A stretch of DNA of 64,000 nucleotides from Halodesulfovibrio spirochaetisodalis (lineage in GTDB: Bacteria; Desulfobacterota; Desulfovibrionia; Desulfovibrionales; Desulfovibrionaceae), in assembly GCF_001672295.1 (NCBI RefSeq), contig NZ_JXMS01000001.1, positions 62,001-126,000 on the forward strand, in the 5' to 3' direction. The translations under genes were made by a program, and so were the position numbers. Below, piece after piece: positions 6,684-26,151 of this stretch. The notes under the pieces are model-generated. The model worked only from the letters and a program-made list of their open reading frames with translations. It had not been told where the DNA came from and searched no databases. Every line of letters starts with the position of its first letter. Position 1 is the stretch's first letter.

Positions 6684-7811
6684 TTAACGCAGTGCTGAAA
6701 GCCACGTCTCTGGATTAATTGCTTTTTGATGAAAGCGCAATTCGAAATACAGTCCGGTACCGTCCACTGCGGGGTAGAAGCCAGCTTCACCGATTATTTG
6801 CTTAGGTTTAACAACAGAGCCTACCTGTAAATTGCTGATGGCAAGAAAGGCGTAGAGCGAATAGTACTCTTCCCCGTGCATGATAATAACAACGCGACCG
6901 AAGCCTCGCAAGACATCGTTATGCACCACTCTGCCACCGGCAACTGCCCGAACCATGCTGCCTTCCTGCAGGGCAATCCCCACACCGCGAACAGGCGGTT
7001 TTCTTTTCGGCCTGAATCGTTGGGAGATAATACCTTTAGCAGGCCACGGCAGCACACCTTTAAGCAGTGAAATATTGGAGCCAGCCTGACTGTGCGCTTC
7101 CATTTTGTAATTCAGTGTATCAATAATAGAGAGAACATTGCGCAGTGATGACTCTGCGGTTGCCCGCTCTTTGCTTACTTTTGCAAGCTGTCTGCTGTGG
7201 CGCAACTTTTGCGCAAGCAGGACATCTTTCTTTTTGTTTACCTTTGCAAGCTGCTGTCCGGCCTCTTTGGAGAGTGCCGTTTGCTTTTCAGCCAGCTGCT
7301 TAAGCTTGTTTTGCTGCGCAACAAGTTCGCGCTGCTTTGCTTCTACCGTTGCATACAGGGTGGAAGCCCATGTGTAGCGCCTGTCCAGCTCATCCCAGTT
7401 CTCTGCGGAATTGTTAGAAAGGACACGGCTATTAATGTACAACGGCCATAACTTTTTAACCAATGATATCAATTCTTTTTGCGCTGCACTATTCTTGGTC
7501 TCAAGCTTTTTATACTCAAGAGTAAGCGTCTTACTCTTCGTATTAAGCGCAGCGTATTTTTTTTCCTGCTTTTTGATCTCGCCGGAAAGGGCAGCAATAG
7601 TCGCCTCTTCAGTGCTCAGCTTGCGCTTAAGATGCTGTGTTTTTCTGTTGAGTACTTTGAGCTTTTTCTTTTTTTGCTCAGCTTCGCGTTTTTCACGCTT
7701 CAGCTTTTTAGCAAGGCTGGAAGCATTTTCAGCATAGGCAGGAGAGTACGTGGCGACTGAACAGAGCAACGTGATGAGAATGAGGAGTAGGGAGGTGAGT
7801 GTTTTCTTCAT
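6684..7811 (-). CDS. envC: EnvC-like murein hydrolase activator (degenerate LytM domain)
   Basis: A periplasmic 375-residue protein with a signal peptide (MKKTLTSLLLILITLL..., cleavage after AYA), a long Lys/Glu/Gln-rich coiled coil (about 30-230) and a C-terminal LytM/M23 domain (about 255-375). In catalytic M23 enzymes zinc is held by H-x3-D and H-x-H motifs. Here the corresponding sites read RGVGIAL, SLYAFLA and LYFELR, so the ligands appear lost. This matches EnvC/NlpD-type proteins, which switch on amidases rather than cut. The open frame extends to 7955, but that part crosses a repeat element. The ATG at 7811 gives the signal peptide. The gene precedes ctpA. Confidence 0.9.
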   Translation of the reverse strand: MKKTLTSLLLILITLLCSVATYSPAYAENASSLAKKLKREKREAEQKKKKLKVLNRKTQHLKRKLSTEEATIAALSGEIKKQEKKYAALNTKSKTLTLEYKKLETKNSAAQKELISLVKKLWPLYINSRVLSNNSAENWDELDRRYTWASTLYATVEAKQRELVAQQNKLKQLAEKQTALSKEAGQQLAKVNKKKDVLLAQKLRHSRQLAKVSKERATAESSLRNVLSIIDTLNYKMEAHSQAGSNISLLKGVLPWPAKGIISQRFRPKRKPPVRGVGIALQEGSMVRAVAGGRVVHNDVLRGFGRVVIIMHGEEYYSLYAFLAISNLQVGSVVKPKQIIGEAGFYPAVDGTGLYFELRFHQKAINPETWLSALR

Positions 7812-7819
7812 GTGTATTT

Positions 7820-7897
7820 TTCTGGTGCCTTCGGCGAGTCTCCGACGGGCAGGGGCTCTGCCCCGCACCCGCAAGGGGGACGCCCCCTTGACCGCGA
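7820..7897. repeat. GC-rich dispersed repeat, copy A
   Basis: Contains the blocks GTGCCTTCGGCG, CTCCGACGGGCAGGGGC, CTGCCCC and GCAAGGGGGA-x-CCCCCTTGACC. It matches copy B at 14765-14856 block by block and copy C (reverse) near 15001-15053 in its first half. The second half forms a strong hairpin (AAGGGGG/CCCCCTT). It starts nine bases upstream of the envC-like ATG, so it would lie in that gene's leader. Confidence 0.8.
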
Positions 7898-7907
7898 ATA
7901 GTTTGTT

Positions 7908-8324: not shown

Positions 8325-8490
8325 GCAGAGTGTGTCTAGAGGGCAGGGATGGTGTTCCGTTCCGTGTTCTCGTGCTGTTTTTAGTATATTGTTTTGGCGC
8401 AGAATGCAAAACGTGGCAGCTAGCAAAGCCTGCTCGGGAACATGGGACGGAATATCATTCTCTGCCCATACTCGAACCTAGTGCAACAAA
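8325..8490 (+). ncRNA. Candidate structured RNA with long G-U compatible stem
   Basis: Arm 8341-8372 pairs with arm 8433-8467 over about 34 positions, with one bulged base. Wherever the two arms deviate from perfect complementarity, the plus-strand RNA has a G-U wobble, while the minus strand would have A-C clashes. Inside is a smaller hairpin (GTTTTG 8391-8396 with CAAAAC 8407-8412). Outside, GAGTGT and TTTTGCA can pair with ATACTC and TGCAACA across bulges. The pattern argues for a functional plus-strand transcript. No promoter was identified and no known RNA family was recognised. Confidence 0.5.
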
Positions 8491-8649
8491 AAAGCTTCTC
8501 AGCTTACGTTTCACACTTACGCATGAGGCATACGCGCTTAGACCACGGAACACTTGTTCCCTAGTCTTTGATGCAAAGGAAAATTTCAGCGTCGCACATG
8601 CCAGCCTATCATTATATATAAAGGTTAGCTCACCACATTAAATGCAAAC

Positions 8650-9300
8650 CTATTCTAAGAACGGCTGTAACGGACATGTTTCGCAGCGCGGCTCTTTTTT
8701 TAAGCACCATTCTTTAGCAACGCGAACGACAAGGGCGTGATACTCATTAAAGAGCTGTACATCCTGCGGCAGCACATCCATGAAGTAATCACGAAGATCA
8801 TCATAGTAAATATCTTCTTCTACTAAACTGTGCCGATTAAAAATACGCCGAGTGTAGGTGTCTACCACAAAGGAAGGACGCTCTAAGGCGTAGAGAAGGA
8901 TAGAATCTGCTGTTTCCTGCCCTATGCCGTTAACAGTGAGCAGTTCTGCCCGTAAGTCGTCTGTGGAGAACGTATCGAGTGCAGCAAAGGAATAGTCTGC
9001 TGTTTCTTGAAACCAGCGCAAGAGGTTCTGTAGGCGTTTTGCTTTAACATTGAAATATCCGGCAGGTCGGATAAGTGCAGCCAGCTCGTCCTGAGGCAGG
9101 GCAAGTATAGCTTGCGGAGTTAGCATCTTCTGGTCTTTAAGAGCATGGATGGCTTTTTCAACATTCTTCCAGTTTGTATTCTGGGTAAGAACTGCACCCA
9201 CCATTACCTCAAATGCACTTTCAGCAGGCCACCATTCGCTGTTGCCAAGTTCATTTTGCATGGCTGCGAACATGTCTAGTAATAATGATTCACGATTCAT
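8650..9300 (-). CDS. Endonuclease III-superfamily DNA glycosylase, MagIII-like
   Basis: A 216-residue HhH-GPD base-excision enzyme. The helix-hairpin-helix reads TVNGIGQETADSIL (about 125-138), and the conserved Asp follows in FVVDTYTRRIF. In endonuclease III a Lys in GRKTA forms the Schiff base. Here the same place is GQETA, so lyase chemistry is not expected, and the closest remembered relative is the 3-methyladenine glycosylase MagIII (GKESADAI). C-terminal cysteines (EWCLKKEPRCETCPL) suggest a 4Fe-4S loop. I chose the ATG at 9300 (MNRESLLLD). The frame continues upstream without family similarity. Base specificity is inference. Confidence 0.85.
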   Translation of the reverse strand: MNRESLLLDMFAAMQNELGNSEWWPAESAFEVMVGAVLTQNTNWKNVEKAIHALKDQKMLTPQAILALPQDELAALIRPAGYFNVKAKRLQNLLRWFQETADYSFAALDTFSTDDLRAELLTVNGIGQETADSILLYALERPSFVVDTYTRRIFNRHSLVEEDIYYDDLRDYFMDVLPQDVQLFNEYHALVVRVAKEWCLKKEPRCETCPLQPFLE

Positions 9301-9370
9301 AGTGTGTTCAACACTACTCTTAACCATACAGACTAGCAAGAAAGCACAACGTGGAACGCTGTGCTTTGAC

Positions 9371-9404
9371 AAAAAAGAAGCCCCCTCGGCAAGCCGAGGG
9401 GGCT
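9371..9404 (-). terminator. Intrinsic terminator of the large lipoprotein gene
   Basis: A perfect 12-bp stem (AGCCCCCTCGGC/GCCGAGGGGGCT, two-base loop) is followed on the minus strand by TTCTTTTTT. Confidence 0.88.
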
Positions 9405-14674: not shown

Positions 14675-15065
14675 GTTCGTCCTCCGTTCAAGGTACACTG
14701 CATGAATCTTGAAACTATTTCTTGATCGTTTTTGCTAATTTGTTGCTTTTGGAAGAGCTTTTTGTGCCTGCGGCGCTTGAGTTTTTTTGTCTCCGACGGG
14801 GAGGGGCGCTGCCCCTCCACCCCGCAAGGGGGAATCCCCCTTGACCCGATTAGGTAGGTGTGGGGTGGGAGGGACATGAAAATCTGTGTATCGGCATCAC
14901 TACTTACTTGAGGCGTGACGCTATATGAATTTGGACTGAGTACTTATAGAGCCGTGAATGCAACCTTATTTCGGAATATCTCGAATAATAGGGGTGCAGG
15001 GGGATTATCTCCCTGCCCGCCGGAGGCAAAAAAACTCAAGCGCCGCAGGCATACCAAATAAACCC
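14675..15065. other. Intergenic region with inverted pair of repeats
   Basis: Holds repeat copies B and C facing each other, about 130 bases apart, between the AraC-type gene and hrpB. No gene was seen. The promoter of the regulator should lie close to 14675-14760. Confidence 0.6.
14765..14856 (+). repeat. GC-rich dispersed repeat, copy B
   Basis: Blocks GTGCCTGCGGCGCTTGAG, a T run, CTCCGACGGGGAGGGGC, CTGCCCC and GCAAGGGGGA-x-CCCCCTTGACCC. It shares the left half (GCCTGCGGCGCTTGAG plus T run plus CTCCGxCGGG) with copy C in reverse, and the right half with copy A. Confidence 0.85.
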
Positions 15066-23454: not shown

Positions 23455-26151
23455 ATGAGTACCTTAGAATTGACCATTAATGGCAAGGGATATGCGTTCA
23501 CCCAGGGAGAAACCATTCTGGACGTGGCGTGCAGGAACGATATTGTTATCCCCACACTGTGTCATTTAAAAAACACCACGCCTACAGGTGCCTGCCGTAT
23601 GTGTGTGGTGGAAGTAAAGGGTGCACGTTCACTGGTTGCATCATGCACAGTACCTGCCAGTGCCGGTATGGAAGTGCAGACGGAATCTCCATCTGTTGTT
23701 AAATCCCGCAAAATGAATCTAGAGTTATTGCTGTCTTCCGGCTCACATGACTGCCTCCTTTGTCCGGCCTCCGGTGACTGCCGTCTTCAAGATTTAGCAT
23801 TCAAATATAATGCAACAGGAAAGCGGTTTGAACGAACCAAGCCGAAGTATTCTCCTGATGTGTCCAATCCGTTTTTAATTCGTGACTTCTCCAAATGTAT
23901 TCTGTGCGGGCGTTGTGTTCAGGCATGCAAAGATGTGCAGGTCAACAACGCCATTGATTACGGCTATCGCGGCAGTGATGCAAAGATTATTGCCAAATGT
24001 GATCTCCCGTTAGGTGATTCCGACTGCGTATTCTGCGGGGAATGCCTGCAAGTATGTCCTGTGGGTGCGCTTACGCTAAAGAAAGCGCGCCAGAAGCCAC
24101 GCATTTGTGAAACAGAAGCAGTGCGGACAACGTGCGCTTACTGTGGTGTGGGATGCCAGATGAATCTGCATGTAAAAGACAATGTTGTGCAGATGGTGAC
24201 TGGTGCAGATGCTGTTCCGAACCATGGCAGCCTGTGTGTTAAAGGGCGGTTCGGCATGCAGTTCATCAACTCCCCGGAACGTCTCACAACACCGCTTATC
24301 CGTAAAGACGGAGAGCTTGTTCCTGCAGAGTGGGATGAAGCACTCGGGCTGGTTGCAGAAAAACTGGGAACATACAAAGCAGAAAACGGTGCAGATTCTA
24401 TCGGCGTATTAGCTTCAGCCCGTTGTACAAATGAAGAAAACTACCTGTTTCAAAAGTTTGCACGTGCAGTAATCGGGACAAACAATGTCGATCATTGTGC
24501 GCGGTACTGACACTCCCCAACGGTAGCCGGTCTGGCTGCTGCATTTGGAAGCGGTGCTGCTACAAACCCGATTGATGATCTGCAACATGCAGATACGGTG
24601 TTGATAACAGGTTCAAATATTACAGAGAATCATCCTGTGATGGGGGCGGCGCTAAAACGTGCCATTACTCAGCACGGGACCAAACTGATTGTGTCAGACC
24701 CGCGCAATATTGATGTTGTGCGTTTTGCAGACGTCTGGCTGCGGTCCCAGCCGGGGACAGATGTTATCTGGATTAACACACTTGCGCATATAATATTGCG
24801 CGATGGTCTGCACAATCAGGAGTACATTGATGAGCGCACAGAAAACTTCACAGCCTATTCGCAATCCCTTGCGAAGTTCACACCGGAGTACGCAGAGAAG
24901 AAGTGCGGTATTCCAGTTGCTGAACTTGAAAAAGCAGCACACTTGTATGCAAAAGGACGCAGTGCCATCCTCTACTGTATGGGAATCACCCAGCACGTAA
25001 GCGGCACTGATAACGTAAAAGCCCTCGCAAATCTTGCCATGTTATGCGGTAATATTGGTATACAAGGTGGTGGATTGAATCCGCTTCGCGGGCAAAATAA
25101 TGTTCAGGGTGCGTGCGATATGGGCGCACTTCCGACAACATATCCAGCGTACGGAAAGGTTATAGACGAGAGCGTCCGTGCCCGTTTTGAGGCAGCGTGG
25201 GATGTCAAATTGTCCGAATCTAACGGTATGACATCACGACAAATGTTTGATGCTGTTGATGCAGGGACGCTAAACGCCTTGTATCTTATTGGTGAAAATC
25301 CTGTGGTCTCTCATGCAGATTCAGCTCATGCGGTGCATTGTTTAGAGAAAATTCCGTTTCTGGTTGTTCAGGATATCTTCCTAACAGAAACAGCAAAACT
25401 GGCTGATGTAGTACTTCCTGCTGCATGTTTTGCTGAAAAAAATGGAACATTCACTAACACGGAACGGCGTGTTCAGCGTGTACGAAAAGCCGTAACTGCG
25501 CCGCAAGGTGCTCGCGATGACGCACAGATTGTGTGTGATATTGCAGCAAAAATGGGTACAGAACTCATTCAGGATAACGGGGAAAATGCTGCTGCCGTGT
25601 TTGATGAAATGGTATCGGTGACACCTTCTTATGGTGGGTTAACCTACAGCCGGATTGATGAAACTGGCATTCAATGGCCGTGTCCTGATACAGAAAGTAA
25701 GGGAACGCCAATTTTGCATGCAGAAAAATTTGTATGTGGAAAAGGCAAGTTTCATGAAGTGGACTTTGTTGCTCCTGCTGAAGAAGCAGATGAAGAGTAC
25801 CCGTTAATTCTTACAACAGGACGGGTGTTGTACCAGTATCACACAGGAACCATGACCCGTAAGTCTACAGGACTTTATGCAAAAGCACCTGCTGCATATC
25901 TGGAAATAAGCCGGAATGATGCAGCAGCGTACAACGTGAACGATGGTGATCGAGTGAAGGTCTCATCCCGTCGCGGTGCCATTGAAGTTTCCGTTCAGTT
26001 GTCAGAAAAAGCTGTGGACGGCACAGTGTTTATTCCGTTCCATTTTGCGGAAGCTGCTGCAAACGTCCTCACAAACAGCGCGGCGTGTCCTGAATCCGGC
26101 ATTGCCGAGGTAAAGGTCTGCGCTGTAACTATAGAACCAGTCGGCGATTAG
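23455..26151 (+). CDS. fdhF: Selenocysteine formate dehydrogenase, catalytic subunit
   Basis: Reversible formate/CO2 conversion at a molybdenum- or tungsten-bis(MGD) centre. The product is 898 residues if the in-frame TGA at 24508-24510 is read as Sec352, in the context DHCARY-U-HSPTVAG. The N-terminal NuoG-like part holds a 2Fe-2S (Cys36, 47, 50, 64), a His-Cys3 4Fe-4S (His98, Cys100, 103, 109) and two ferredoxin-type clusters (Cys148-158, Cys191-201). The FdhF part starts with a 4Fe-4S (Cys227, 230, 234, 261). The C-terminal domain (about 775-895) is molydopterin-dinucleotide binding. Both halves of the frame align with one family, so this is recoding rather than a nonsense mutation. Third gene of the operon, so likely NAD-linked. 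Confidence 0.95.
24508..24546 (+). promoter_or_regulatory. bSECIS element with UGA-Sec codon
   Basis: Directly after the UGA, GTAGCC and GGCTGC form a 6-bp stem (one T-G wobble) capped by GGTCT. This is the same apical loop and spacing as the SelB-binding hairpin of Escherichia coli fdhF. It recruits SelB/Sec-tRNA in the family. It implies selA, selB, selC and selD elsewhere in the genome. Confidence 0.92.

Follow-up and report, generated by a model that had tools for sequence, protein, structure and literature searches.

A genus-restricted family of long intergenic stem-loops in Halodesulfovibrio under selection for pairing

The long hairpin at 8341-8467 of the window, the 64,000-nucleotide stretch of the Halodesulfovibrio spirochaetisodalis genome analysed here, is one of six hairpins in three Halodesulfovibrio genomes (G000, G008 and G009) that form a hitherto undescribed stem-loop family, restricted to the genus, in which pairing is under selection. 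The five other copies lie downstream of deaD, upstream of era and, in three species, upstream of speB. Together the six are dispersed over four kinds of gene junction, all intergenic, as in ERIC/NEMIS-type stem-loop repeats, and the three genomes hold three, two and one copies of the long form. The element comprises a stem of ~26-37 pairs, a hinge of the form CG-Y-GC / GC-Y-CG, a U-rich strand, GCUGUUUUU, and a loop that is large and variable. It has so far been seen in 3 of the 10 genomes of the genus.

Folding of the plus strand gave a stem of 32 pairs with one bulge (8341-8346 with 8462-8467, and 8347-8372 with 8435-8460), which bears out the roughly 34 paired positions between 8341-8372 and 8433-8467 proposed in a sequence-only reading of this DNA, and the fold also contained the small loop hairpin described there. 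Six of the 32 pairs are G-U (8348/8459, 8352/8455, 8354/8453, 8361/8446, 8364/8443 and 8370/8437); an alternative register that pairs 8346 with 8461 yields an unbroken run of 27 pairs and seven G-U. Neither A-C pairs nor other mismatches were found in the plus-strand stem, in agreement with the earlier claim that its imperfections are all G-U on this strand. When both strands of 8325-8490 were folded, as that reading had suggested, the plus strand reached -74.5 kcal/mol (z -6.8, with none of 200 shuffles equally good) and the minus strand -43.3 kcal/mol (z -1.7). The 27-pair run is the longest unbroken stem on either strand of the 350 kb of genome searched, and ~4e-4 such runs are expected from base composition per 272 kb strand. 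By energy the hairpin is the best local fold in 272 kb (-73.4, compared with -62 to -66 for the best fold of each of four shuffled copies), a rank that is less exceptional than its stem length. The hairpin does not have the form of an intrinsic terminator, its loop being ~60 nt long and no U-run lying 3' of the second arm, and a coding role for plus-strand frames of 117 and 68 codons was rejected, with no Pfam match. The features of the hairpin and its surroundings are collected in the table.

Table. Features of the hairpin at 8341-8467, of its junction and of related shorter hairpins (window coordinates unless a locus is named)
Feature	Position	Strand	Basis or remark
Long stem, 5' arm	8341..8372	+	Folding, stem-run search, pair listing
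Long stem, 3' arm, U8461 bulged	8435..8467	+	Folding, pair listing
Small hairpin in loop, GTTTTGG...GCAAAAC	8390..8413	+	Fold; not common to other family members
Conserved 5' hinge CGTGCTGTTTTTAGT; U8373 is half of the pyrimidine-pyrimidine mismatch	8371..8385	+	Exact CGYGCTGTTTTTMGT match common to four other hairpins
Conserved 3' hinge GCTCGGGAA, pairs with 5' hinge; U8434 opposite U8373	8432..8440	+	Member comparison
Flanking gene, HhH-GPD endonuclease III family	8650..9372	-	Gene/domain annotation
Flanking gene, M23 peptidase with coiled coil (EnvC-like)	6684..7808	-	Gene/domain annotation
Terminator-like AAGCTGAGAAGCTTTTTTG at end of endonuclease III-like gene, adjoins hairpin	8487..8505	-	Read from sequence; not in the scan output
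Promoter-like TTTGCA-16-TATACT with imperfect palindrome, in loop	8383..8412	-	Conserved at junction, six species
Shorter related hairpins	L219:700-1340, L220:6290-6380, L221:5430-6320, L222:6660-7140, L223:6936-7042		Near contig ends

Members of the family were sought by three routes: a covariance model, a structure-blind sequence motif and gene orthology. The covariance model built from the single hairpin recovered two more, one downstream of deaD in the genome of the window, the other ahead of era in G008. On the 5' side they have CGTGCTGTTTTTMGT in common and on the 3' side GCTCGGRAA, while their lower stems differ. A motif-only search of ten genomes returned six exact matches to CGYGCTGTTTTTMGT. 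Five of these lie on a long stem, in which 24-30 of the 30 bases nearest the hinge are paired; the sixth does not. The speB-upstream copies of G000 and G008 are orthologous, flanked by the same two genes; a third, in G009, was found by reading orthologous junctions, and the copy was absent at the orthologous junctions of G001, G002 and G005. Presence is patchy throughout, the element being missing at equivalent junctions in most sister species. All six members share the hinge CGYGCUGUUUUU / GCYCG with a pyrimidine-pyrimidine mismatch, U-U in the 8341-8467 copy and C-C at speB, and the hinge pairs themselves covary, CGCGC/GCCCG becoming CACGC/GCCUG in G009 (second pair G-C to A-U). Terminal inverted repeats are not conserved: the outer stems differ by locus, and GCGAAG...TTCGC occurs only in two orthologous copies.

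Beyond the genus, a DNA similarity search of 297 genomes of the class returned only the sequence itself and a 50-base match to the loop. The family model, run over 348 genomes of the order, gave weak matches (23-28 bits) that we do not claim as members. Plasmids, phages and viral contigs yielded no real match, and the family's stem was absent from nine viral contigs that carry the motif. The sequence-only reading had recognised no RNA class, and Rfam likewise gave no gathering-level match in the window and, in the family loci, none on the hairpin strand above chance; a MIR869 match overlapping the G008 era hairpin scored 19.4 bits where the gathering score is 330 and is attributed to chance.

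Selection on pairing in this family is well supported by comparison of its members, which combine different complementary stems with one hinge. In the six-member alignment 89.8% of stem cells fell in standard pairs and 22 of 28 pairs showed change on both sides, a level reached by none of 500 shuffles; when one arm was slid by one, two or three columns, pairing fell to 35-47%. Because the first matches came from a model that rewards pairing, the copies found independently of it matter, namely the speB copy of G008, obtained by motif search, and that of G009, obtained from gene order. Among the three orthologous speB copies (G000, G008 and G009), 11 pairs had changed on both sides, compared with 0-3 in slid controls. 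The ratio of G-U to A-C on the named strand across the six members was 12:1, with arms aligned on Watson-Crick matches only; mutation bias as the sole source of a G-U pattern is possible for one copy and not for the family. Judged from these alignments, the family displays the compensatory change that characterizes structured non-coding RNA. The sequence-only reading had concluded from the wobbles of one copy that an RNA was under selection. The dispersed family upholds selection on pairing; the G-U pattern of the one copy was insufficient for this conclusion, and the RNA nature of the molecule is something we infer.

The 12:1 ratio suggests a folded single strand of the named sense, and the family most likely acts as a single-stranded hairpin, presumably of RNA. 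We infer transcription rather than read it from signals, because no consistent promoter or intrinsic terminator serving the hairpin strand was found across the copies, because the copies are located mostly in gaps beyond terminators, and because a comparable bias is expected of a hairpin of single-stranded DNA, in which G-T would be tolerated better than A-C. Only the deaD copy has a convincing terminator nearby, a strong one that follows it on its own strand. The speB hairpin is probably outside the speB mRNA, since it sits upstream of the apparent speB promoter. In all copies except that at 8341-8467 the two strands fold about equally well. As regards orientation to replication, the long hairpin strand is on the GC-skew-negative strand at three of the four junction kinds and on the positive one for the 8341-8467 copy, numbers that are too few to use.

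On balance we lean towards a low-copy dispersed stem-loop element that would work through its folded RNA and whose stem sequence could change freely provided that its arms keep their complementarity. On transcription, the long duplex would be a substrate for an RNase III-type enzyme or the target of a duplex-binding protein; alternatively, it might serve as a rigid handle that offers the invariant hinge and the U-rich strand, a predicted recognition site, to a protein. By analogy with the ERIC and NEMIS stem-loops, such an element may act on the transcripts that contain it, and its copies would spread and vanish like small palindromic repeats. We regard as improbable the more far-reaching proposal of a new class of bacterial RNA element that spreads among intergenic sites and builds arrays at rRNA operons, and in which a fixed hinge accompanies a long, fast-changing, near-perfect duplex that is itself the informative part, either as a source of double-stranded RNA fragments or as a copy-specific recognition stem.

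The main rival, which we hold to be a serious if lesser possibility, is a mobile palindromic DNA element of the MITE or REP type, in which a single-stranded DNA hairpin would be read by a transposase or recombinase, pairing would be needed for mobility and the RNA would have no function. Such an element would fit copies that are dispersed, patchy and intergenic, that occupy varied gene contexts, often just past terminators, and that lack clear promoters; related tandem arrays adjoin rRNA genes, and the plus strand of the 8341-8467 hairpin also folds better than the minus strand as DNA. Against it, the loci have unrelated stem sequences, unlike REP, ERIC and similar repeats, whose stems are conserved, and the orthologous copies change by compensation, not by fresh insertion. 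No common terminal repeat was seen, nor, by eye, any flanking target-site duplication (often TA in ERIC/NEMIS-type repeats) at the copies, a clean empty site for comparison being lacking, and no transposase-like gene stood out up to 1.5 kb from the copies at speB, era and deaD. It is less probable still that the hairpins are free-standing genes for trans-acting small RNAs with their own promoters and ends, the stem providing stability or a handle for ProQ or RNase III. The conserved hinge and U-rich strand, the strand-specific wobbles and the same-strand terminator after the deaD copy would suit such genes, but that terminator is the only convincing one and no upstream promoter element common to the copies was found.

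Two further explanations concern the 8341-8467 locus itself, where the M23 peptidase/endonuclease III-like junction was found in 9 of the 10 genomes of the genus. No significant stem spans the equivalent spot in five close species. The comparison of related genomes recommended in the sequence-only reading was uninformative at this locus, because none of the close sister species keeps the stem there. What is conserved instead is the loop sequence TTTTGCATTC-N5-CAAAA, then ATAC. Judged by its own locus alone, the stem could pass for lineage-specific, because these five sister species are without it, and one might suppose a chance or neutral inverted duplication in one genome, with mutation on a G-rich leading strand mimicking strand specificity. 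The surrounding intergenic GC skew of 0.14, which makes the plus strand mildly G-rich, favours G-U over A-C, and other inverted repeats of the sampled 350 kb show a G-U:A-C ratio of ~55:45; the all-G-U pattern of this single copy is for these reasons weak evidence. The supposition, to which we give almost no credence, is already contradicted by five other copies that carry this hinge on independently complementary stems, and by the orthology of three of the six. It is also very improbable that a minus-strand promoter and operator in the loop is the functional part, regulating the M23 peptidase gene, with the stem a cruciform or by-product. The promoter-like element and its imperfect palindrome are kept in six species, and, in the genomes that carry it, the intact TTTGCA-16-TATACT form is confined to this junction; it lies on the strand opposite to the hairpin and may drive the M23 peptidase gene as a distal promoter. 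Five other species, however, keep the promoter-like element without the stem, and the loops of the other family copies do not contain it.

Among known systems, ERIC/IRU/RU-1 and NEMIS/Correia elements are dispersed intergenic stem-loops of ~100-160 nt, some of which act on transcripts as RNA (PMC2229807, PMC2267715). The Halodesulfovibrio family resembles them in size, in its dispersed intergenic location and in having one long stem-loop, but they keep stem sequence and terminal repeats, whereas it keeps only pairing and hinge and has a very low copy number. REPs are short, carry a GT(A/G)G head and occur in tens to hundreds of copies (PMC2817692). Like the REP/BIME elements associated with RAYT transposases, which are recognised as single strands, the family consists of intergenic hairpins; unlike them, it has no GT(A/G)G head and only one to three long-form copies per genome. 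Like 6S RNA and other long hairpins of Rfam, it has one long, imperfect stem and conserved features inside it, but it matches no curated model and is dispersed, multi-copy and genus-restricted. Integron attC sites are imperfect hairpins in which structure is preserved more than sequence, with conserved basal R boxes and a variable tip. The family is likewise maintained by structure over sequence, yet it conserves the tip-side hinge and varies the base, and cassette genes were not seen near its copies. The family is most aptly described as a structure-conserved variant among the small intergenic stem-loop families.

The family brings, from a genus of marine sulfate reducers, a structure-conserved element that is not listed in Rfam and is of a kind that sequence-based repeat finding would miss. 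Its near-total stem change with pairing kept, even in orthologues, offers naturally occurring compensatory variants with which to ask what long RNA duplexes do for bacteria. If the DNA reading were true, the family would represent a palindromic mobile element recognised by shape and not by sequence.

The six-member model also matched shorter and weaker hairpins that have UUGUUUUUMGURC at the corresponding position and recur every ~130-290 bases near rRNA operons. They were found at four contig ends of G008, with a single copy near one contig end of G000, and a 5S rRNA was identified beside three of these five ends. Their position is probably due to the breaking of assemblies by rRNA repeats. 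The shorter hairpins look like relatives of the long family, to which a short motif and a common fold link them. Two arrays of short units were also observed in G008, one of the 8-base CCAAGGAA near era, beside the era hairpin (L123:1737-1794), and one of the 6-base GGTCTT near an rRNA operon (L235:18178-18264).

Several other features came to light in the same survey. Upstream of era, six close species (L189 and L181-L184 among the loci) have a conserved intergenic stretch of ~180 nt that ends in a terminator-like hairpin, AAGGATGCAGAAA..CTAGCTAGATTCTGCATCCTTG; Rfam gave nothing for it in L189 at E <= 1, and it is a candidate conserved small RNA. A GC-rich intergenic repeat (TCTCCGACGGGCAGGGG..., GCAAGGGGGACGCCCCCTTGACCGCGA) occurs at 7830-7900 and 14765-15051 of the window, the latter as an inverted pair of 41 positions with 38 matches, and also upstream of the M23 gene in G001. 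The formate dehydrogenase alpha gene has an in-frame TGA at 24508-24510 on the plus strand (CARY*HSP), most likely a selenocysteine codon, and the coding region downstream of it contains a strong stem at 24685-24820.
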